Position numbers and translations under genes: made by a program
The notes under the pieces: generated by a model
Told to the model about the DNA's origin: nothing
The model's input: the letters and a program-made list of their open reading frames with translations, nothing else
Databases searched by the model: none
Part shown: positions 27,073 through 35,878 of the stretch, one piece after another
Numbering within the stretch: position 1 is the first letter of the stretch
Layout: the number at the start of each line of letters is the position of its first letter
IMG/VR virus record: IMGVR_UViG_3300025889_000075
Coordinates: 62,001 to 126,000 of that record
Source: a virus
Strand: one strand, 5' to 3'
Length of the DNA stretch: 64,000 bases

Positions 27073-28223
27073 ATGGCAATTAATATACAAAAATTACTAG
27101 AAGCGATACAAACAAGTATAGGTAATGCCACACCTGCTACACCCACACGCGAACTCGAAATTCTTACCAAAGGTGCATTTAAGTGGGGCGACAATCAAAT
27201 CACTTCATTTGATTCTGATGGAGAATTTCTTGACTCAGCAACTACTTCGCCATATATGTTAGCATACCATACAGGCCATATATGTTAGCATACCATACAG
27301 GTAAGAAAAACATTTATGCATTTGACAGCGGATCATGGCAATCGATCAGTGGTACTGTTGCTGCTGGATATTCATTCCAAGGTTCTACCAGTGGATATAC
27401 TTCTGGTGGATTGGTACCACCATTCTCTAACGTCATTGACAAATTCCCATTCTCATCTGACGGTAATGCTACTGATGTAGGAGATTTGACAGTAGCAAGA
27501 TCTAATGCAGCAGGTCAATCATCGTCTGCTAGTGGATATACTTCTGGTGGACATCCCTTCCCACTAGACGTAATTGACAAATTCCCATTCTCAGCTGATG
27601 CTAACGCTACTGATGTTGGTGATTTAACAGTAGCAAGACGGTATCTTGCAGGTCAATCTTCTTCTGCTAATGGGTATTCTGCTGGTGGTCCTGGTTCAAA
27701 CGTAATTGACAAATTCCCGTTTTCTTCTGATGCTAATGCTACTGATGTAGGCGATTTGACAGTAGCAAGATATTATTTAGCAGGTCAATCATCTACTGTT
27801 AGCGGATATTCTTCTGGTGGCACTCCACCATACACAAACGTCATTGATAAATTCCCATTTTCTGCTGATGCTAATGCTACTGATGTAGGTGATCTGACAG
27901 TAGCAAGAGGATATGTAACAGGTCAATCATCAACTGTTAGTGGGTATACTTCTGGGGGATTTAGTCCAGCTCAACAATCAAACGTAATTGACAAGTTTTC
28001 ATTCTCAACTGACACTAACGCTACTGACGTTGGGGATTTGACAGTAGCAAGATACAATTTAGCAGGAGGTCAATCATCTACTGCTAGCGGGTATACTTCT
28101 GGAGGTACGACATCCGACGCTACCAACATCATAGATAAATTCCCATTCTCATCTGATGGTAATGCTACGGATGTAGGTGATTTATCAGTAACTAGATATG
28201 GTGGAGCAGGTCAACAGGTATAA
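27073..28223 (+). pseudogene. Kelch-like repeat gene, array copy 10, frameshifted by a 26-bp duplication
   Basis: As read, the frame opened at 27073 stops at 27288, giving 71 residues of a type A N-terminal module. A second frame, open from 27282 to 28223, carries the rest of the module and six regular repeats. A perfect 26-bp tandem duplication (27250-27275 and 27276-27301) causes the break. Removing one unit restores TTSPYMLAYHTGKKNIYAFD, matching copy 12 (TTSPYLMLYHTTDKNIYMWD), and gives an intact 374-residue protein ending AGQQV. Because the two units are identical, the change could be recent and reversible. An internal ATG at 27282 might still allow the propeller part to be made. Confidence 0.85.
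27250..27301 (+). repeat. Perfect 26-bp tandem duplication
   Basis: Two identical 26-bp units, beginning CCATATATG and ending ATACAGG, lie head to tail inside the N-terminal module of array copy 10. Since 26 is not a multiple of three, the reading frame shifts. Loss of one unit by slippage would restore the gene. Confidence 0.95.
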
Positions 28224-28226
28224 GTT

Positions 28227-29384
28227 ATGGCAATTAATATACAGAATTTATTAAATGTTGTTCAGGCGAAGTTAAACGCAACAACGCCAACGACACCTGC
28301 ACTTGAATTTTCTAGATTGTCATCGATATCTGATATGTTAGAAGATCATGGAGCGGCTGTTAAATCTTATCCTGGATTAGCATCATTTCCAACAGCAGAC
28401 TCAGCGAATCATGGTGACATTGCTTACAGTTTAGATAGCGCAACGTATAGAATATCAGAGCAACTTGCTTGGAGAGAAATATCATTAAATGCTGATAGTG
28501 TGATTGCTGCTGCTCCTACTAGCACACAAGCACAAGGTTCTACCAGTGGATATAATTCTGGTGGATTTTTAAATTCCGGCAACTCAAACGTCATCGAAAA
28601 ATTTCCATTCTCTACTGACGCTAATGCTACTGATGTTGGTGATTTGACACTAGGAAGATATAATGCATCAGGTCAATCTTCAACTGCTAGTGGGTATACT
28701 TCTGGTGGATCCAGTCCTGGACTATCACCCTATATTGTCAATAACATTGATAAATTTCCATTCTCTGCTGATGGTAATGCTACCGATGTAGGGGATTTGT
28801 CAGTAACAAGAACTGGAACAGCAGGACAATCTTCAGACGCTAGTGGATATATTTCTGGAGGTAGTTTGCCTGCTGCTTCTAATGTCATTGATAAATTCTC
28901 ATTCTCTTCTGATGGTAATGCAACTGACGTAGGCGATTTAACAGAAGCAAGAATAAAACCATCAGGACAATCATCAACTGTTAGTGGATATAATTCTGGT
29001 GGAACAGGGACTGGCAATATCATAGATAAATTCCCGTTCGCCTCTAATGCTAATGCTACCGATGTTGGTGATATAACGGTAGCGAGAAACTATGCTGTAG
29101 GTCAAAATTCAGACGCTAGTGGTTATACCTCTGGAGGATCCCCAACGTCGAATGTTATCGATAAATTCCCGTTTTCATCCGACGCGAATGCTACTGACGT
29201 AGGAGATTTGACAGTAGCAAGATATACATCAGCAGGTCAATCGTCAACTGCTAGTGGATATACTTCTGGAGGGTATCCATATCAAAACACTATTGATAAA
29301 TTCTCATTCTCTTCTGATGGTAATGCGACTGACGTTGGAGATATGACAGAAGTAAAGGGTTTCGTTATAGGACAACAGGTATAA
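28227..29384 (+). CDS. Kelch-like repeat protein, array copy 11 (N-terminal type B)
   Basis: This is a 385-residue paralogue with a type B N-terminal module (LEFSRLSSISDMLEDH...FPTADSANHGDIAYSLDSATYRISEQLAWREI), nearly the same as copy 7 in its last 40 residues. Six regular repeats open at GYNSGG, GYTSGG, GYISGG, GYNSGG, GYTSGG and GYTSGG. The variable stretches are short to medium (FLNSGNS, SSPGLSPYIVN, SLPAAS, TGTG, SPTS, YPYQ). The C-terminus is IGQQV. It is 3 nt after copy 10. Confidence 0.8.
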   Translation: MAINIQNLLNVVQAKLNATTPTTPALEFSRLSSISDMLEDHGAAVKSYPGLASFPTADSANHGDIAYSLDSATYRISEQLAWREISLNADSVIAAAPTSTQAQGSTSGYNSGGFLNSGNSNVIEKFPFSTDANATDVGDLTLGRYNASGQSSTASGYTSGGSSPGLSPYIVNNIDKFPFSADGNATDVGDLSVTRTGTAGQSSDASGYISGGSLPAASNVIDKFSFSSDGNATDVGDLTEARIKPSGQSSTVSGYNSGGTGTGNIIDKFPFASNANATDVGDITVARNYAVGQNSDASGYTSGGSPTSNVIDKFPFSSDANATDVGDLTVARYTSAGQSSTASGYTSGGYPYQNTIDKFSFSSDGNATDVGDMTEVKGFVIGQQV

Positions 29385-29387
29385 ATT

Positions 29388-30638
29388 ATGGCAATTGATC
29401 TAAAAGAATTATTAAGTGCAGTACAGAGCAAGATTGGTAATCTTACGCCGTCAAGTCCATCGCGTCAAATTGAATTCTTGGCGAAAGCAGCAGTTAGGTC
29501 AGGAGAGAATTTAGTTCGCTCTTACGATTCTGATGGTGAGTTTTTAGATTCTGCGACAACTTCGCCTTATTTAATGCTCTATCATACAACAGATAAAAAT
29601 ATCTACATGTGGGATAGCGATGGTACTTGGAAACCGATTAGCGGCAATGAAGCGTTATTGGTTGGTTTACAAGGGGATTTAGCGGGGTATGCTATAACAG
29701 GAAGAAAAGCCACAAACTCCGACATAGATAATATTGTTGCATTTAGGTTTGCTTCAGGATCAGAAACTATCTATAATCAGGGTCTTAGTGGGGTAAACTC
29801 TTTGCCGGCAGGTGTTGGTATGGGTCATGGTCGTGGTACAATGAGTGAGACTAATGGATATCATTACGGTGGTTATAATCCTCCTTCTCCAATGTCAAGC
29901 ACAATGTATAAATTTCCATTTTCTTCTACTGGTGGACTTTCTGGTTTAAGTAGTATGAGTCCGCATGGAGCATATGCTTGGACTGCAGCTGTTTCAGCAC
30001 AAGGTCCAGGATACGGTTATTATTCAGCTGGGCGAGCATTACCCGCAGGTGCATCAAGCGCAACACATAAATTTCAATTTTCTAATGATACTTCTGCGGC
30101 GACTCCTGTTGGGACTACTAATTTTAGCTCTTATGCTACTGGTCAAACAGATGTCGTAGGCGGGCAGGGTCATATATTTCAATATGATATCATTGGAGGA
30201 TCATCAAGAGATAAATACCCATTTGCCTCTGATGTTAATGCTACTGCTATAACAAGTATTTCGATCTCAAAATATGGTTCTCAAGGATCTACTGGAGACG
30301 CTAGTAATTATTATCAAGCAGGTGGAGTAAACCCAAGCGGAAGTACCATTTACACTGATATTTACAAAATGAATTTCACAAGTGAAGGACCTTCAACAAA
30401 CATCGGCGATTTAACTACTGCAAGATATCAGACTGGAGGTTATTCTTATTCTGGCGGAACTGCTTTTATTGCGGGGGGGAGTTCCGGAACTCCTTCTCCA
30501 AACTATTTAAACCCATTAGCATATACATCAACTATTGAAGGTATTTCTTTTGCTAGTGATACCATCGGTGTTGCTGCTGGTTCTGGAATGTCTGGACCAT
30601 CGCCAGCTCGATCTGGATATGGTTGCGTTCAGGTTTGA
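29388..30638 (+). CDS. Kelch-like repeat protein, array copy 12 (type A, divergent repeats)
   Basis: This is a 416-residue paralogue and the last of the array. The N-terminal module is a clear type A (IDLKELLSAVQSKIGNL...YDSDGEFLDSATTSPY). The six repeats are highly divergent: GYAITG, GYHYGG, GYYSAG, HIFQYDIIGG, YYQAGG and FIAGG, with cores such as MYKFPFSSTGG and RDKYPFASDVNAT. A conserved module thus carries an unrelated-looking propeller, as expected if N-terminal and propeller parts are exchanged. The end is GCVQV. A sigma70-like promoter for the next cassette overlaps its stop. Confidence 0.75.
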   Translation: MAIDLKELLSAVQSKIGNLTPSSPSRQIEFLAKAAVRSGENLVRSYDSDGEFLDSATTSPYLMLYHTTDKNIYMWDSDGTWKPISGNEALLVGLQGDLAGYAITGRKATNSDIDNIVAFRFASGSETIYNQGLSGVNSLPAGVGMGHGRGTMSETNGYHYGGYNPPSPMSSTMYKFPFSSTGGLSGLSSMSPHGAYAWTAAVSAQGPGYGYYSAGRALPAGASSATHKFQFSNDTSAATPVGTTNFSSYATGQTDVVGGQGHIFQYDIIGGSSRDKYPFASDVNATAITSISISKYGSQGSTGDASNYYQAGGVNPSGSTIYTDIYKMNFTSEGPSTNIGDLTTARYQTGGYSYSGGTAFIAGGSSGTPSPNYLNPLAYTSTIEGISFASDTIGVAAGSGMSGPSPARSGYGCVQV

Positions 30639-30688: not shown

Positions 30689-31528
30689 ATGAAACAATTA
30701 CATTTTTGCGGTGGACTTCCACGTTCAGGATCAACAGTCTTAATGAATATACTTCAGCAAAACCCTGAAGTATTCACGACCACAACTGATCCTCTTCCGA
30801 TGAATCTTCAACGATATATTCTTCAGAGATTTCGTGTAACTGAAATGTTCCAAGCAATGGACGGTGATCATGCAGATCGTGCGTTGTATGGTATGGCAAT
30901 GGGAGCAATTAATGGTTGGTACAGCGGATTAACAAATAAACCTGTTGTTATCTCTAAGACTCGTTATTGGAATCGTATACATCATTTACTGCCGAATGCA
31001 AAAATATTAATTATGATTCGAGACTTGAGGGACATCGTCGAAAGTTTCAACAAAGTTAATTTAAGATTAAAAGCATTACATTCATACGAAACAGAAGGTA
31101 GCGCGTTATATGCTGCTATGACTGAGATGCAAAAATTTGATTATCATTTCGGCAAAGATAATTCTTTAAGTGCATCATTACAAGAAGAAGTACCAGCAGC
31201 AATGGAATTTTGGATGTATGAGAATAAACAAGACACAATTAAGTTTATTCGTTACGAAGACTTTCTTAAAGATCCTATAGATACAATTAGATCAATCTAT
31301 GCTTTTCTTAATTTAAATTATTACGAACACGACTTAAATAATATTTCACAATCAGAAATGTTTGAACATGATAATGCCTATTTTATGGAGAAAACTGATC
31401 ATCGGACCAAACCCTCCTTTATTAAATGGCAACCACCAAAAAGGTTATTAAGCGAACGTATACATAATCGTATACTTAAAGAATATCAATGGTTTTATGA
31501 AGGATTTTATCCGGAGGAATTAAAATAA
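30689..31528 (+). CDS. Sulfotransferase family protein
   Basis: This 279-residue protein begins with CGGLPRSGSTVLMNIL. PRSGST at residues 11-16 is the 5'-phosphosulfate loop that binds PAPS in sulfotransferases. A second element, LIMIRDLRDIVESFNKV with Arg111 and Ser119, fits the 3'-phosphate-binding site. It should transfer sulfate from PAPS to a hydroxyl or amino group of an unknown acceptor, possibly a glycan or a virion or host surface component. No membrane segment is visible, so it is probably cytosolic. It shares a TAATG overlap with the oxygenase gene, so the two act as a coupled pair under a sigma70-like promoter. Confidence 0.8.
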   Translation: MKQLHFCGGLPRSGSTVLMNILQQNPEVFTTTTDPLPMNLQRYILQRFRVTEMFQAMDGDHADRALYGMAMGAINGWYSGLTNKPVVISKTRYWNRIHHLLPNAKILIMIRDLRDIVESFNKVNLRLKALHSYETEGSALYAAMTEMQKFDYHFGKDNSLSASLQEEVPAAMEFWMYENKQDTIKFIRYEDFLKDPIDTIRSIYAFLNLNYYEHDLNNISQSEMFEHDNAYFMEKTDHRTKPSFIKWQPPKRLLSERIHNRILKEYQWFYEGFYPEELK

Positions 31529-32883
31529 TGGAAATGGCAGCGCAACAACAATATACCGCAGCAGATGCTTTTCGTGATAGGGGATACGTATATTTAAATA
31601 GTACCATCTCTAGAAAAGATTGTGAAGAACTAACGAAGTATATGTTCTCACTTTATGATAAAGGAGTGCTTGAAAAAGACGAGCAATGTCCTCTTTCCGA
31701 TTCAGTTTATGGTGATGAAATCTTTGATGGTATCGCTAGAGAATTAGCAGGTCCGTTGTCGAATCAACTCGGCGTTCAGTTGCTCCCTACCTACACTTAC
31801 GCCAGGATTTATCGCAACGGGGAAATACTAGTGCGTCATAAAGATCGCCCCTCATGCGAGATCTCAGGAACCATGACACTCGGTTTCGATGATGGTTCAG
31901 GACTTTGGCCAATTTATTTCGCTGAGAATGATGACGATCAAATAGGAACTCCTTACGAAATTAATATCGGTGATTTGGTAATGTACCGTGGTTGCGAACT
32001 TCCTCACTGGAGACCGAAATATAAAGGTAAGTGGCAAGTTCAAATCTTTTTCCATTTTGTTGATGCTAATGGTCCACACAAAGATTTTGTCTGGGACGGC
32101 AGGAAGTCAATGGGGAAAAAGAAAACTCCAGATAATATGAGAGAAAAAGGTGAAACTCCTACGCTCGACATGTTTAAGGGTAAGGTCATCAATGATGAAG
32201 TTGATGTTATGCGCGGAAGAAACATTCCTGAAGATATTAAATTCTATCATCTTCCACAATCACAATGGATCACTAATGGTATTATGATTCGAACTTGTGA
32301 TAACGAGTTTCCTGGTGCTTCGTTCTTCAGTAAAAAAGGCGTTCATCCTGAAATGACATTAAGTCTAGAAGAATGTAAACGAGTAATCTCTTATGCCGAT
32401 CAAAAATATGGAATGAAATCTACCGTTGGTTCTGATGAATCAAGAGCATACAATAAGGAAATTCGTGAAGTTGATACATACACTCTGGAGCATACACCAG
32501 AAACTTCTTGGTTGTTTCAGAAAGTAGCAGCTGCCGTGGGTGTAGTAAACGCTGAATACTACCGCTGGAATCTTCTTGGTATTACTCATGCTCTGCAGTT
32601 ACTACATTATAAAGGCGAAGATAAATCTCATTATCAGTGGCATATTGACGCGGGACCAACGAGCAGCGCAACGAGAAAACTATCTCTTTCTATTCCGCTC
32701 AATGATGACTATGAGGGAGGCGATCTTATAATCAATAGCAACGGTGTTATAATGACTGCGCCCAAAGAACTCGGATCTATTTCTTTCTTCCCAAGTTTCA
32801 GTTTGCATAAAGTTGAACCTGTTACTAAAGGTGAGCGCTGGGTAATCGTCGCTTGGATTCATGGACCTGATCGATTTAAATAG
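31528..32883 (+). CDS. Two-domain 2OG-Fe(II) oxygenase
   Basis: This 451-residue protein carries two double-stranded beta-helix oxygenase domains. The first (about 85-180) has His104-x-Asp106 (RHKDRPSCE) and distal His160; a Lys near 168 takes the place usually held by Arg. The second (about 345-450) is of prolyl-4-hydroxylase type, with His372-x-Asp374 (WHIDAGP), distal His427 (SLHKVEPV) and 2OG-binding Arg437. Both sets of metal ligands look intact. The substrate is unknown. Coupling to the sulfotransferase suggests consecutive modification, hydroxylation then sulfation, of one target; that is inference. Confidence 0.8.
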   Translation: MEMAAQQQYTAADAFRDRGYVYLNSTISRKDCEELTKYMFSLYDKGVLEKDEQCPLSDSVYGDEIFDGIARELAGPLSNQLGVQLLPTYTYARIYRNGEILVRHKDRPSCEISGTMTLGFDDGSGLWPIYFAENDDDQIGTPYEINIGDLVMYRGCELPHWRPKYKGKWQVQIFFHFVDANGPHKDFVWDGRKSMGKKKTPDNMREKGETPTLDMFKGKVINDEVDVMRGRNIPEDIKFYHLPQSQWITNGIMIRTCDNEFPGASFFSKKGVHPEMTLSLEECKRVISYADQKYGMKSTVGSDESRAYNKEIREVDTYTLEHTPETSWLFQKVAAAVGVVNAEYYRWNLLGITHALQLLHYKGEDKSHYQWHIDAGPTSSATRKLSLSIPLNDDYEGGDLIINSNGVIMTAPKELGSISFFPSFSLHKVEPVTKGERWVIVAWIHGPDRFK

Positions 32884-32927: not shown

Positions 32928-33683
32928 ATGCCAGCAATTACAAGTAGAGATACGCTTATTGATTATTGCTTGAGGAAACTTGGCGACCCTGTTATTGAAA
33001 TAAACGTCGATCAGGATCAAATAGAAGATAAAGTAGATGATGCTCTGCAAATGTATCAGGAGTATCATAGCGACGCAACAATTCGTACTTATTTGAAGCA
33101 TCTCGTTACTGCTGATGATGTTTCGAATAAGTACATTCCTATTTCATCAGATATTATTTACGTATCTAAACTATTCCCCGTAACGTCAACCTTTGGATCA
33201 TCAGGCAACTTATTTGATATTCGTTATCAGATGATGTTGAACAACATGGGCGACTTTATTAACTTTGCTGGTGATATTGCTTATCTTTATCAGATGGAGC
33301 AATACCTCAGCATGGTCGATCAAACATTGCACGGCAATCCATTAGTTAGATTTTCTAGAAGACAAAACCGTCTTTATCTCTTTGGAGATTTCGAAGATAA
33401 AGATGTCAAAGCAGGTGACTATTTAATTGCTGAGGTTTATCAAATAGTAAACCCACAATCTCACACCAGCGTTTATAACGACATGTTCATTAAGAACTAT
33501 ACTACTGCGCTAATTAAACAGCAGTGGGGTATTAACATGTCTAAATTTGAAGGTATGCAATTACCTGGAGGAGTAACAGTTAGCGGAAGACAAATGTATG
33601 ATGACGCAACAACTGAGTTAGAAAAACTCGAAGAGAAACTGCGTCTTGAACAAGAATTACCTCCTGACTTTTTTGTAGGTTAA
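32928..33683 (+). CDS. 13: Neck protein gp13
   Basis: This 251-residue protein matches T4-like gp13 in its N-terminal pattern (SRDTLIDYCLRKLGDPVIEINVDQDQIEDKVDDALQMYQEYHSDATIRTYL) and in its position before gp14, gp15 and the terminase. gp13 completes the head-tail neck after packaging and helps join the tail. It is shorter than T4 gp13 (about 309), as is usual in marine relatives. AGGATTATGCTAAA precedes the ATG, and a late promoter is 28 nt upstream. The next gene starts 1 nt after its stop. Confidence 0.85.
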   Translation: MPAITSRDTLIDYCLRKLGDPVIEINVDQDQIEDKVDDALQMYQEYHSDATIRTYLKHLVTADDVSNKYIPISSDIIYVSKLFPVTSTFGSSGNLFDIRYQMMLNNMGDFINFAGDIAYLYQMEQYLSMVDQTLHGNPLVRFSRRQNRLYLFGDFEDKDVKAGDYLIAEVYQIVNPQSHTSVYNDMFIKNYTTALIKQQWGINMSKFEGMQLPGGVTVSGRQMYDDATTELEKLEEKLRLEQELPPDFFVG

Positions 33684-33684
33684 A

Positions 33685-34296
33685 ATGGCGACAAATCAAT
33701 ATTTCTCTCGCGGATCTAAATCCGAGCAAAGACTTTATGAGGATCTAGTAATAGAATCTTTGAAGATGTACGGGCAAGATGTTTATTATGTCCCGAGAGA
33801 AATCGTGCGCAGAGATACTATTTTCAATGAAGCGACATTATCTCGTTTTTTAAATGCATATAAAATAGAAATGTATTTAGAAAATACAGATGGGTTTGAG
33901 GGCGAAGGCGATTTGTTTACTAAGTTCGGTATTCAAATTAGAGATACTGCTAATTTTGTTGTTTCAAGAAAAAGATTTAACTGGGAAGTTGGTAGTATAG
34001 AAAATGGTGGTGATCCAAATAAATTCTATAGACCAAGAGAAGGTGATGTAATTCATTTACCTCTTTCTAATTCTACTTTCCAGATTATGAAAGTTGAAGA
34101 TGAAACACCATTTTATCAATTAAAAAATCTTCCAACGTTTAGACTTTCTTGCGAATTATTTGAATACGCTGATGAAAACTTCGATACTCAAATTGCTGAA
34201 ATTGATAATATTGAAACTTACGCAGCATATCAATATGTTCTTACTATACGTACGGCAGAACAAGCCAGAGCAACTGCAACAGCGAGTATTGACTAA
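33685..34296 (+). CDS. 14: Neck protein gp14, N-terminal part
   Basis: The 203 residues contain the T4 gp14 core: EQRLYEDLVIESLKMYGQDVYYVPREIVRRDTIFNEA, then a glycine/acidic segment and PREGDVIHLPLSNSTFQIMKVEDETPFYQL. In T4 the protein continues about 60 residues more and ends near ENPFDDF. Here the frame stops after TAEQARATATASID with a TAATG overlap. The downstream frame ends SENNPFGDPI, so the C-terminal end of gp14 seems to lie on the next gene. It may be a natural split or a sequence error. Confidence 0.8.
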   Translation: MATNQYFSRGSKSEQRLYEDLVIESLKMYGQDVYYVPREIVRRDTIFNEATLSRFLNAYKIEMYLENTDGFEGEGDLFTKFGIQIRDTANFVVSRKRFNWEVGSIENGGDPNKFYRPREGDVIHLPLSNSTFQIMKVEDETPFYQLKNLPTFRLSCELFEYADENFDTQIAEIDNIETYAAYQYVLTIRTAEQARATATASID

Positions 34297-35102
34297 TGGC
34301 AGGTATTAGCTCATTATCATTAACTTTCGCTGGAGCAAACTATCAAGTAGCTCCAAGCGTTACAATTGCGCTTCCAGATTTAGATTCTGGTAACGCTACT
34401 GCAACTATCACTTTAAATGATAGCGGATTTGTCAGTTCTATTAATGTTACTGATGGTGGTGCTTATTATACCTCTGCTCCAAATGCATCATTTACTTACG
34501 TTGACTCTGATGGAAACAGCGGAACAATTATTGTTGGTACTACTATTAATATTGACGGCACAGTTACTGCAGTAGATAAACCAATAACATCAGCGCCAAT
34601 TGTTTCCTCTTCTATAACAATAGATTCGGCGACTGGTACAAAAAATGATTTTAGAGCAAGAGTTACTTCGATACTCGATTCAGCAAACAGCGTAGTTAGT
34701 GGGTTCAATATAATCGATTCTGGTGGGGGTTATACAGTAGCGCCAGCGGTTACAATTGATTTCTCTTACACAGATTTAAATTATGTGGTAGGAGAAAATG
34801 CTATACAACAAAATGCTACGTTTAATATGGTTGGTGAAGTTCAGGGTTGGAACGATTCGGATAGAGAATTAAAACTAATTCGAGTTGGTGCTTCTGATGG
34901 TAAATTTCATGAATGGAATACTACCAATCCAGTTCGAGGCGAAACTTCAGGTTCTTCTGGTTCTATACTGTCAGTTAGAGAAGTACAAACAATGGATCCT
35001 GATGCTGGCGGTGGTTCTTCTGGTAACGTTACTGATTTCGATGTTTCTGCGCTCGAGTTTATTGATTTCAGCGAAAATAATCCGTTCGGAGATCCAATCT
35101 AA
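34296..35102 (+). CDS. gp14 C-terminal part with inserted beta domain
   Basis: This 268-residue protein begins with two Ser/Thr/Gly-rich beta repeats (GANYQVAPSVTIALPD and DSGGGYTVAPAVTIDF) of a type common in phage structural proteins. The following segment is NDSDRELKLIRVGASDGKFHEWNTTNPVRGETSGSSGSI. The end, VSALEFIDFSENNPFGDPI, resembles the end of T4 gp14 (VEALEYVEP ... ENPFDDF). The start codon overlaps the stop of the gp14 core, so coupled translation would give both chains in equal amounts. I interpret it as the detached C-terminal half of gp14; an independent neck protein is the alternative. Confidence 0.6.
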   Translation: MAGISSLSLTFAGANYQVAPSVTIALPDLDSGNATATITLNDSGFVSSINVTDGGAYYTSAPNASFTYVDSDGNSGTIIVGTTINIDGTVTAVDKPITSAPIVSSSITIDSATGTKNDFRARVTSILDSANSVVSGFNIIDSGGGYTVAPAVTIDFSYTDLNYVVGENAIQQNATFNMVGEVQGWNDSDRELKLIRVGASDGKFHEWNTTNPVRGETSGSSGSILSVREVQTMDPDAGGGSSGNVTDFDVSALEFIDFSENNPFGDPI

Positions 35103-35878
35103 TGTTAACTGGTCATTTCTATCACGAACATATTCGCAAATCAGTAGCGGTCTTTGGATCTCTTTTCAACGACATTTATATTTTTAGAAAAACAAATAGT
35201 GGCGTTGGTCAAGGTCAAATGAAAGTTCCTTTGAGTTATGGTCCAAGGAATAATTTCTTAACACGTATCGCAGAGATGGCAAACGGCGAAGAAGCAGAGC
35301 GTCAGTTAGCAATCAGATTACCGAGAATGTCGTTTGAGATTCTAGGTTTAAATTATGATCCTGTTAGAAAATTACCGACCAACAATTCTACAGTTCAGGC
35401 ATTGGTTGGATCAAACAGTCAGACTGCTAGAACTAAAATGTTCACCGCTGTTCCTTACAACATTTTATTTCAATTAAATATTTATGGTAAAACTCAAGAC
35501 GACGCGCTACAAATAACAGAGCAAATCTTGCCTTACTTTAATCCACAATATACAGTTAGAGTTAAACCAATTGCTGATATTCCAGCAATTATAGATGATG
35601 TACCAATTATCTTGCAAGGCGTAACATTTACTGACGATTATGAAGGATCTATTGAACAAAGAAGAACAATTCTTTATACTTTAGATTTTGAAATGAAAAT
35701 AAACTTTTATGGACCTGTCGTTTCTAAAGATATTGTCACAGAAGTTCAAACGAGTTTGTTTCAAATGGATACTGGTTTATCAGATAGTGATGAATTACTT
35801 AGCACGTTAACAACTACTGCTACTCCTTCTGGGGTTGGACCAGATAGTGATTTTTCTTTATTAACTACTATATCATAG
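35102..35878 (+). CDS. 15: Proximal tail sheath stabilization protein gp15
   Basis: The 258 residues match T4-like gp15. They open with MLTGHFYHEHIRKSVAVFGSLFNDIYIFRK, followed by VPLSYGPRNNFLTRIAEM, RLPRMSFEILGLNYDPVRKL and NIYGKTQDDALQITEQILPYFNPQYTVRV. gp15 forms a hexameric ring that ends the tail and joins it to the neck. Its length is close to T4 gp15 (272). It starts at the stop of the preceding gene, and the gene 16 start follows 7 nt after its end. Confidence 0.9.
   Translation: MLTGHFYHEHIRKSVAVFGSLFNDIYIFRKTNSGVGQGQMKVPLSYGPRNNFLTRIAEMANGEEAERQLAIRLPRMSFEILGLNYDPVRKLPTNNSTVQALVGSNSQTARTKMFTAVPYNILFQLNIYGKTQDDALQITEQILPYFNPQYTVRVKPIADIPAIIDDVPIILQGVTFTDDYEGSIEQRRTILYTLDFEMKINFYGPVVSKDIVTEVQTSLFQMDTGLSDSDELLSTLTTTATPSGVGPDSDFSLLTTIS

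Follow-up and report, generated by a model that had tools for sequence, protein, structure and literature searches.

The neck protein gp14 (head closure protein Hc2) of a T4-like marine myovirus is encoded in two overlapping frames, here termed gp14a and gp14b, and the split is real and not an assembly error. The reading that we consider probable is a genuine division of gp14 into two translationally coupled chains that dock by β-strand pairing, with the split cassette spread among phages by recombination. The window, which is the whole stretch of 64,000 nucleotides that was analysed, corresponds to bases 62001-126000 of the 155,131-base IMG/VR record IMGVR_UViG_3300025889_000075.

The split locus and its neighbours

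The order of genes in the window, gp13-gp14-gp15, is the usual T4-type order, with gp14 sitting in two frames (Table 1). The window does not hold a single open frame for the full gp14: the stop codon TAA of gp14a occupies 34294-34296 and the ATG of gp14b occupies 34296-34298, so that translation could restart on the last base of the stop. A sequence-only reading of this DNA had placed the end of the gp14 core on the first base of a second gene (TAATG at 34296) and had described the second product as ending in SENNPFGDPI after beta-rich repeats; both descriptions agree with the two open reading frames, the repeats extending from residue 1 to about residue 160.

Table 1. Features of the split gp14 locus, in coordinates of the window
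Feature	Position	Strand	Basis
gp13-like neck protein (head-tail adaptor Ad2), upstream neighbour	32928..33683	+	PHROG 211, E 2.4e-39
gp14a, gp14 core (gate/beta-barrel part), 203 aa	33685..34296	+	PF11649, PHROG 460, T4 gp14 chains
gp14a residues 183-189, probable first strand of the C-terminal beta domain, the rest of which lies in gp14b	34231..34251	+	Inferred from hand alignment to L341 180-186, AF2 strands of L341 and discontinuous fold matches
Predicted strand A of the first repeat, last gp14a strand, residues 196-202 (ATATASI)	34270..34290	+	Equivalent of L341 strand 193-199 (block pLDDT 97, hand-mapped); best-conserved stretch of the gp14a tail
TAATG, one base common to gp14a stop and gp14b start	34294..34298	+	Sequence; present in 10 of 11 distinct split loci and in L490
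gp14b, second half of the neck protein, 268 aa	34296..35102	+	PHROG 460 positions 222-376 of 385, E 1.3e-21; dN/dS 0.19 against L008
gp14b residues 1-160, beta repeats (GG.YT.AP.VTI units), the insert	34296..34775	+	Repeats of PHROGs 701, 19630, 708 and 4406; like the insert in fused L341, L086 and S-M1
gp14b residues 161-268, C-terminal beta domain and tail	34776..35099	+	Aligns with C-terminal regions of fused gp14; dN/dS 0.09; AF2 block pLDDT 83-93 over 161-230
DFSENNPFGDPI tail, likely gp15-binding end	35064..35099	+	N[PV]F tail in 453 of 482 closed loci listed; binding by analogy with T4 gp14 178-256 (PMC12270204, available text)
GGAG, Shine-Dalgarno-like site for gp15 within gp14b tail codons	35088..35091	+	Predicted anti-SD pairing -6.6 kcal/mol (gp14b start, -3.1)
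gp15-like tail sheath stabiliser, downstream neighbour, start also in TAATG	35102..35878	+	PF16724, E 3e-67

Upstream of the neck genes, window positions 27282-30638 hold three consecutive genes, the first two of which are, by eye, made up largely of repeats some 50 residues long (SGYTSGG...NVIDKFPFSSDANATDVGDLTVAR), the third being looser; against Pfam DUF4907 the first scores above the cut-off, the second below it, and the third is without a match. A gene of the sulfotransferase family follows at 30689-31528 (PF13469, E 2e-20), and 31528-32883 encodes a protein of 451 amino acids with a C-terminal 2OG-Fe(II) oxygenase domain (PF13640 at residues 357-445) and no Pfam match at E 0.01 in its remainder. 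No match to the psbA-type family PF00124 turned up in the 155,131-base record, which is possibly incomplete.

The two frames are consecutive parts of one family

The gp14a product matches the T4 neck protein family of Pfam (PF11649) with E 7.9e-33, over profile positions 39-199 of 278 only, and the T4 gp14 chains 9mkb and 9lu4 with E about 1e-24. Against PHROG 460 (head closure Hc2, 385 positions), gp14a covers positions 14-209 (E 3.3e-73) and gp14b covers positions 222-376, with an NPFGD-type tail on the second chain, and the two frames are therefore consecutive parts of one family. Residues 1-154 of gp14b resemble repeats in other phage virion proteins (PHROGs 701, 19630, 708 and 4406). When tested, the end of gp14b resembled the tail of fused marine gp14 proteins; the sequence-only reading had likened it to ENPFDDF, the end of T4 gp14. 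The 155-kb record holds one match each for gp14a and gp14b, and no second copy of gp14 was found elsewhere in it. The suggestion that the repeats form an inserted beta domain was right, as some relatives hold them inside a fused gp14 at the same place.

Recurrence of the split

The comparison set was assembled from seven IMG/VR protein scans (at least 80 loci from each of six, 7 from the remaining one), six loci from isolates and two segments of the record that contains the window, giving 487 loci, or 488 rows with the window. A gp14 core is present in 487 of the 488 rows and its frame is closed in 482; one row without a core (L115) and five with open frames (L099, L326, L334, L440, L451) were dropped before counting. 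Among the 482 closed entries listed, 453 carry the N[PV]F tail on one fused gp14 chain (313 distinct proteins), and in 131 of these entries the protein is at least 340 amino acids long. Relatives with a gp14 that ends before the repeats and is followed by an unrelated gene, which the sequence-only reading had named as the observation that would count against it, were not seen. The split is found in 27 of the 482 closed entries listed, representing 11 distinct gp14a; these 27 entries do not amount to a population frequency, because the scans favour relatives of the query and the entries are not deduplicated by contig, several coming from a single contig in some cases (for example the window, L094 and L095). 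Two closed entries that look like single indels were counted as neither split nor fused: in L450 (1902-2504) the tail lies in another frame without a restart codon, and in L036 (3001-4020) the frame continues beyond the tail.

The overlap is TAATG in 10 of the 11 distinct complete gp14a and ATGA in L478. Searching IMG/VR for the junction pattern gave 13 contigs, of which 12 were already known and one was new (L490, gp14b of 344 aa); together with the window and with L430, L454, L460 and L478, whose junctions lie outside the scanned pattern, the split contigs number 18, and they include one gp14a cut by a contig edge in addition to the 11 distinct complete ones. Among them is another IMG/VR contig with a locus identical to the window and the same TAATG split (L007), possibly from the same phage or sample, and a sister lineage of six contigs (L008-L013) has TAATG at the same place, with a core about 89% and a gp14b 65% identical to those of the window. 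In size gp14b ranges from 266 to 801 amino acids (L119, 801; L387, 471; L430, 470; L478, 363; L134, 344; L454 and L460, 272), and in the split loci L372 and L473 it is cut by the contig end. All ten complete gp14b proteins have an intact NPFG tail, and the order gp14b-gp15 is kept wherever the contig includes gp15, with a small gene of 85 amino acids in between in L490 (1119-1376) and a gap in L460. Fused loci, for example L080, L086 and L041, likewise have some 240-290 bases of space ahead of gp15.

The split forms come from uncultured phages. A tblastn search with gp14a and gp14b as queries gave no isolate above 60% identity, and the six isolate loci (L001-L006), drawn from hundreds to thousands of matching records, each have one fused gp14. 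In the record of Marine virus AG-345-E15 the match to gp14b begins at base 41, so the junction would lie outside that record.

Selection and extra domains

Both gp14a and gp14b are under purifying selection. Between the window and L008, dN/dS is 0.093 for gp14a and 0.189 for gp14b, the latter made up of a repeat part at 0.279 and a C-terminal part at 0.088, and between L454 and L460 the values are 0.018 and 0.054. For the pair L119-L372 the gp14b value is raised to 0.385, at low dS and in a pair affected by recombination.

Extended forms of gp14b, with extra domains between the repeats, occur in L119 (1409-3814), L372 (4597-5428), L387 (1289-2704) and L430 (2850-4262). A domain of about 160 residues is common to L119, L387 and L430, with 31-57% identity to the L387 copy. 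Searches of Pfam, NCBIfam and the PDB by sequence (the PDB with parts only) gave no significant match for the extra domains of these three proteins, and a lectin-like or propeller-like identity, considered by eye, is accordingly not claimed.

Position of the cut in the predicted fold

The fused relative L341 reads through the region of the junction as TATATATLT-GG-SVSSIAVTGAGFGYTAAP, and at the same place the split locus L134 has TATATVSIT, a stop, and (M)AG-PITSLSLTDSGYGYTSAP. In an AlphaFold2 (AF2) model of L341 (58 sequences, mean pLDDT 78), strands 193-199 and 202-210 lie in blocks with pLDDT 97, and the cut, mapped by hand, falls at residues 200-201 in the turn between them, so that gp14a is predicted to end with strand A of the first repeat. 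As judged on this fused relative, the cut would thus lie at a turn with the partner strand on the other chain, which is the arrangement expected of strand complementation.

Conservation at the end of gp14a points to the same stretch. Among nine split gp14a tails, strand A is best conserved, with mean pairwise identities of 0.73 and 0.53, the linker before it is least conserved (0.21), and values further upstream are 0.38-0.43; the tails were compared without gaps and in register from the stop, a procedure that favours the end. In the DNA, the information content of six-base blocks is 1.1-1.9 bits per base at positions -24 to +11 relative to the stop, itself fixed by the choice of rows, 0.5-0.65 at positions -42 to -25, and 1.05-1.12 in the core before them. 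A near-copy (L460) and the locus with the different overlap (L478) were omitted from the junction and tail conservation counts.

A lead from the same model is that gp14a may also give the first strand of the C-terminal beta domain (residues 183-189 in the window). Of 50 listed structural matches to the L341 model, 20 span from residues 175-179 to residues 323-342 and yet align just 61-94 residues, as expected if strand 180-186 joins the C-terminal beta domain beyond the insert. These discontinuous barrel matches have middling scores (Z 5.3-5.9), and there is a counter-case, 5vx6_B (Z 6.0), in which the match to the same domain starts only at residue 265. The L341 model, that of a fused relative and not of gp14a, also matches T4 gp14 chain 9lu4_M (Z 8.2, rmsd 3.8, 96 aligned residues). 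An AF2 model of gp14b alone (28 sequences, mean pLDDT 61) is confident only over residues 161-230 (blocks of 83-93, with 65 or less elsewhere); either a missing partner strand or a shallow alignment would produce such low confidence. The VIA fold matches of this model in the PDB are weak (Z at most 4.4) and uninformative because of the low confidence of the model.

One chain or two

The sequence-only reading had left three options, namely two coupled chains, a frameshift that joins the frames, or an indel in the assembly. An assembly indel, or a decaying pseudogene, has a very slight probability: single indels do seem to occur in gp14, as in L450 and L036, but the split is present in 18 contigs that include divergent lineages, dN/dS is 0.05-0.19 on two full-length gp14b pairs, and the tails are intact in all ten complete gp14b. 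The recurrence of the split in 11 distinct complete gp14a, together with purifying selection on both halves, leads us to reject this option.

Recoding, by a -1 frameshift or by stop-hopping at TAATG, would join the halves wholly or in a fraction of the products, which would yield long and short forms of gp14, and we think it improbable. The gp14b frame is in the -1 register at all 12 junctions, and the DNA for strand A stays adjacent to that for strand B, both of which recoding would accommodate; the -1 register is, however, equally expected from ordinary TAATG and ATGA overlaps, which always have it. The 12 junctions contain no slippery heptamer of the form X_XXY_YYZ, the class of recoding signal that was searched for. 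In two of them, those of the window and of L119, a stop lies close upstream, leaving a single codon for a shift. The last codons of gp14a are variable and the ATG is kept at 12 of 12 junctions, and L478 uses a different overlap, ATGA. Frameshifting is thus disfavoured, and two coupled chains fit best given the lack of a slippery heptamer.

For two coupled chains, termination followed by reinitiation is the likeliest route, as judged from the overlap itself: the halves overlap by one base (four in L478) at all 12 junctions and have no foreign sequence between them. Coupling through TAATG or UAAUGA overlaps in T4-like phages gives, in most cases, a less abundant downstream product, according to the available text of PMC2988022. 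Predicted pairing with the anti-Shine-Dalgarno sequence at gp14b starts is -3.0 to -3.3 kcal/mol in 10 of 11 cases (-6.4 in L478), and at gp15 starts it is -6.4 to -7.4 in 8 of 9 (-2.9 in L460). The weak site at gp14b does not single out reinitiation, because gp14a starts are about equally weak (-3.1 to -4.0 in 10 of 11, with -6.0 in L387), and this comparison was discarded as support.

Two chains could also be two independent proteins, gp14a being a shortened neck protein and gp14b a separately folding decoration that needs no contact with gp14a, a reading that we regard as unlikely. The variable length of gp14b and the presence of its repeats in other virion proteins (PHROGs 701, 19630 and 708) are what such a decoration would show. 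Against it, gp14a retains a strand that is predicted to be part of a gp14b repeat, the NPFG tail is found in 10 of 10 complete gp14b, and gp14b keeps its place before gp15 wherever gp15 is on the contig, allowing for the small gene in L490 and the gap in L460.

Spread of the split cassette

For the trees, rows more than 95% identical with the same label were merged, leaving 176, and L007 was omitted as identical to the window. On the tree of the gp14 core from these 176 rows, the split label requires nine changes for ten rows. In a smaller core tree of 39 rows, in which each of the 10 split rows is accompanied by its four nearest fused rows, at least eight changes are forced by well-supported branches, and the split rows cluster no more than shuffled labels do. 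A single split clade on the core tree was rejected (p-AU 5.5e-5).

The cassette tree, built from strand A and the first repeat of 10 split and 46 fused rows with the split rows joined across the junction, requires only two changes (mean 9.4 for shuffled labels, with none of 500 shuffles as low). Nine of the ten split rows fall in one cluster together with the identical fused rows L366 and L369, and L478 stands apart; the tree has 73 columns and the split cluster has modest support (SH-aLRT 80-81). The gp14 of L366 and L369 is a fused protein of 562 amino acids, and the clustering of its first repeat with split cassettes could mark either a donor that was fused or a later rejoining of the halves.

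L119 derives by recombination from one fused and one split parent. Throughout gp13 and as far as nt 390 of gp14, its DNA shares 87-100% identity with that of the fused locus L141, after which identity is 77-80% for 120 bases and then lower. Compared with the split locus L372, identity is 63-92% up to nt 570 of gp14 and 82-100% beyond it, as far as the L372 contig extends, and dS between the two is 1.5 in gp14a and 0.26 in gp14b. The simplest reading of L119 is that recombination within gp14 turned a fused gene into a split one. Like split cassettes on unlike cores, together with the mosaic L119, show that recombination inside a virion gene trades part of the neck. L478, with its ATGA overlap, stronger Shine-Dalgarno site and different cassette, may represent a second origin.

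A proposed two-part neck protein

In the reading that we favour, the ribosome would end gp14a at TAA and restart on the overlapping ATG to make gp14b. The cut would fall in the turn that joins strands A and B, the first two of the repeat insert, such that gp14a ends with strand A and gp14b starts with strand B, and the chains would dock most likely by β-strand pairing, gp14a donating strand A and probably also the first strand of the C-terminal domain. By homology, gp14a would retain the part that binds gp13 and gates the genome, and gp14b would retain the tail-facing arm with DFSENNPFGDPI, the equivalent of which grips gp15 in T4, along with a repeat domain displayed at the neck. The link from head to tail would then cross from chain to chain as a non-covalent joint held by strand pairing. 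The split cassette may have arisen once or a few times and then been spread among phages by recombination inside gp14.

According to the available text of PMC12270204, T4 gp14 is a hexamer with stopper loops that gate the genome, and its residues 178-256 are disordered before tail attachment and then make extensive contacts with gp15. A load-bearing protein such as gp14, which must first contain a genome under pressure and later grip the tail, would not be expected to be cut repeatedly. A more tentative extension, for which we would claim somewhat less than an even chance, is that the neck hexamer contains a joint with a strand-complemented, non-covalent interface, in which gp14a forms a conserved socket with one exposed strand and gp14b an exchangeable plug, comprising the gp15-binding arm and a cargo domain (266 to 801 aa in all), that could be swapped without disturbing the genome gate. 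If so, the neck would be a platform for exchangeable surface domains. A natural two-part gp14 would also allow the gate and the tail-gripping arm to be studied apart. The available text of PMC5112629 reports putative positive selection on gp14 in one lineage of wild cyanophages, as would suit a neck surface that is exposed and adaptable.

Relation to known systems

The closest known counterpart is T4 gp14 itself (Hc2; PF11649; PDB 9mkb and 9lu4-9lu7), which is alike in core sequence, in the order gp13-gp14-gp15 and in the barrel fold modelled for the fused relative L341, but is one chain of 256 residues where there are two here. Fused marine gp14 proteins with an insert (PHROG 460; L341, L086 and Synechococcus phage S-M1) are built of the same three parts, arranged alike and with the insert in roughly the same position; they too are one chain, whereas the present split lies at the turn within the first repeat. 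Split T4-type replication genes, such as 43A/43B (DNA polymerase) and nrdA, likewise yield a divided chain that needs reassembly, and in the portion available of PMC2988022 an endonuclease gene or intercistronic sequence lies between their halves. The gp14 halves instead overlap by one base (four in L478) and belong to a virion protein, unlike 43A/43B and nrdA. TAATG/UAAUGA coupling in T4-like phages, as in nrdA-mobE and the clamp-loader genes, uses the same overlap as gp14a/gp14b, but the gp14 overlap joins halves of one ancestral protein, and it recurs between gp14b and gp15. A search of the open-licence PMC literature, including the available parts of PMC12270204, PMC5112629, PMC7029224, PMC2988022 and PMC9004378, found no description of a split gp14, which is weak evidence of absence. 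The gp14 family is known, and what is new here is its split, the recurrence of that split and its spread.
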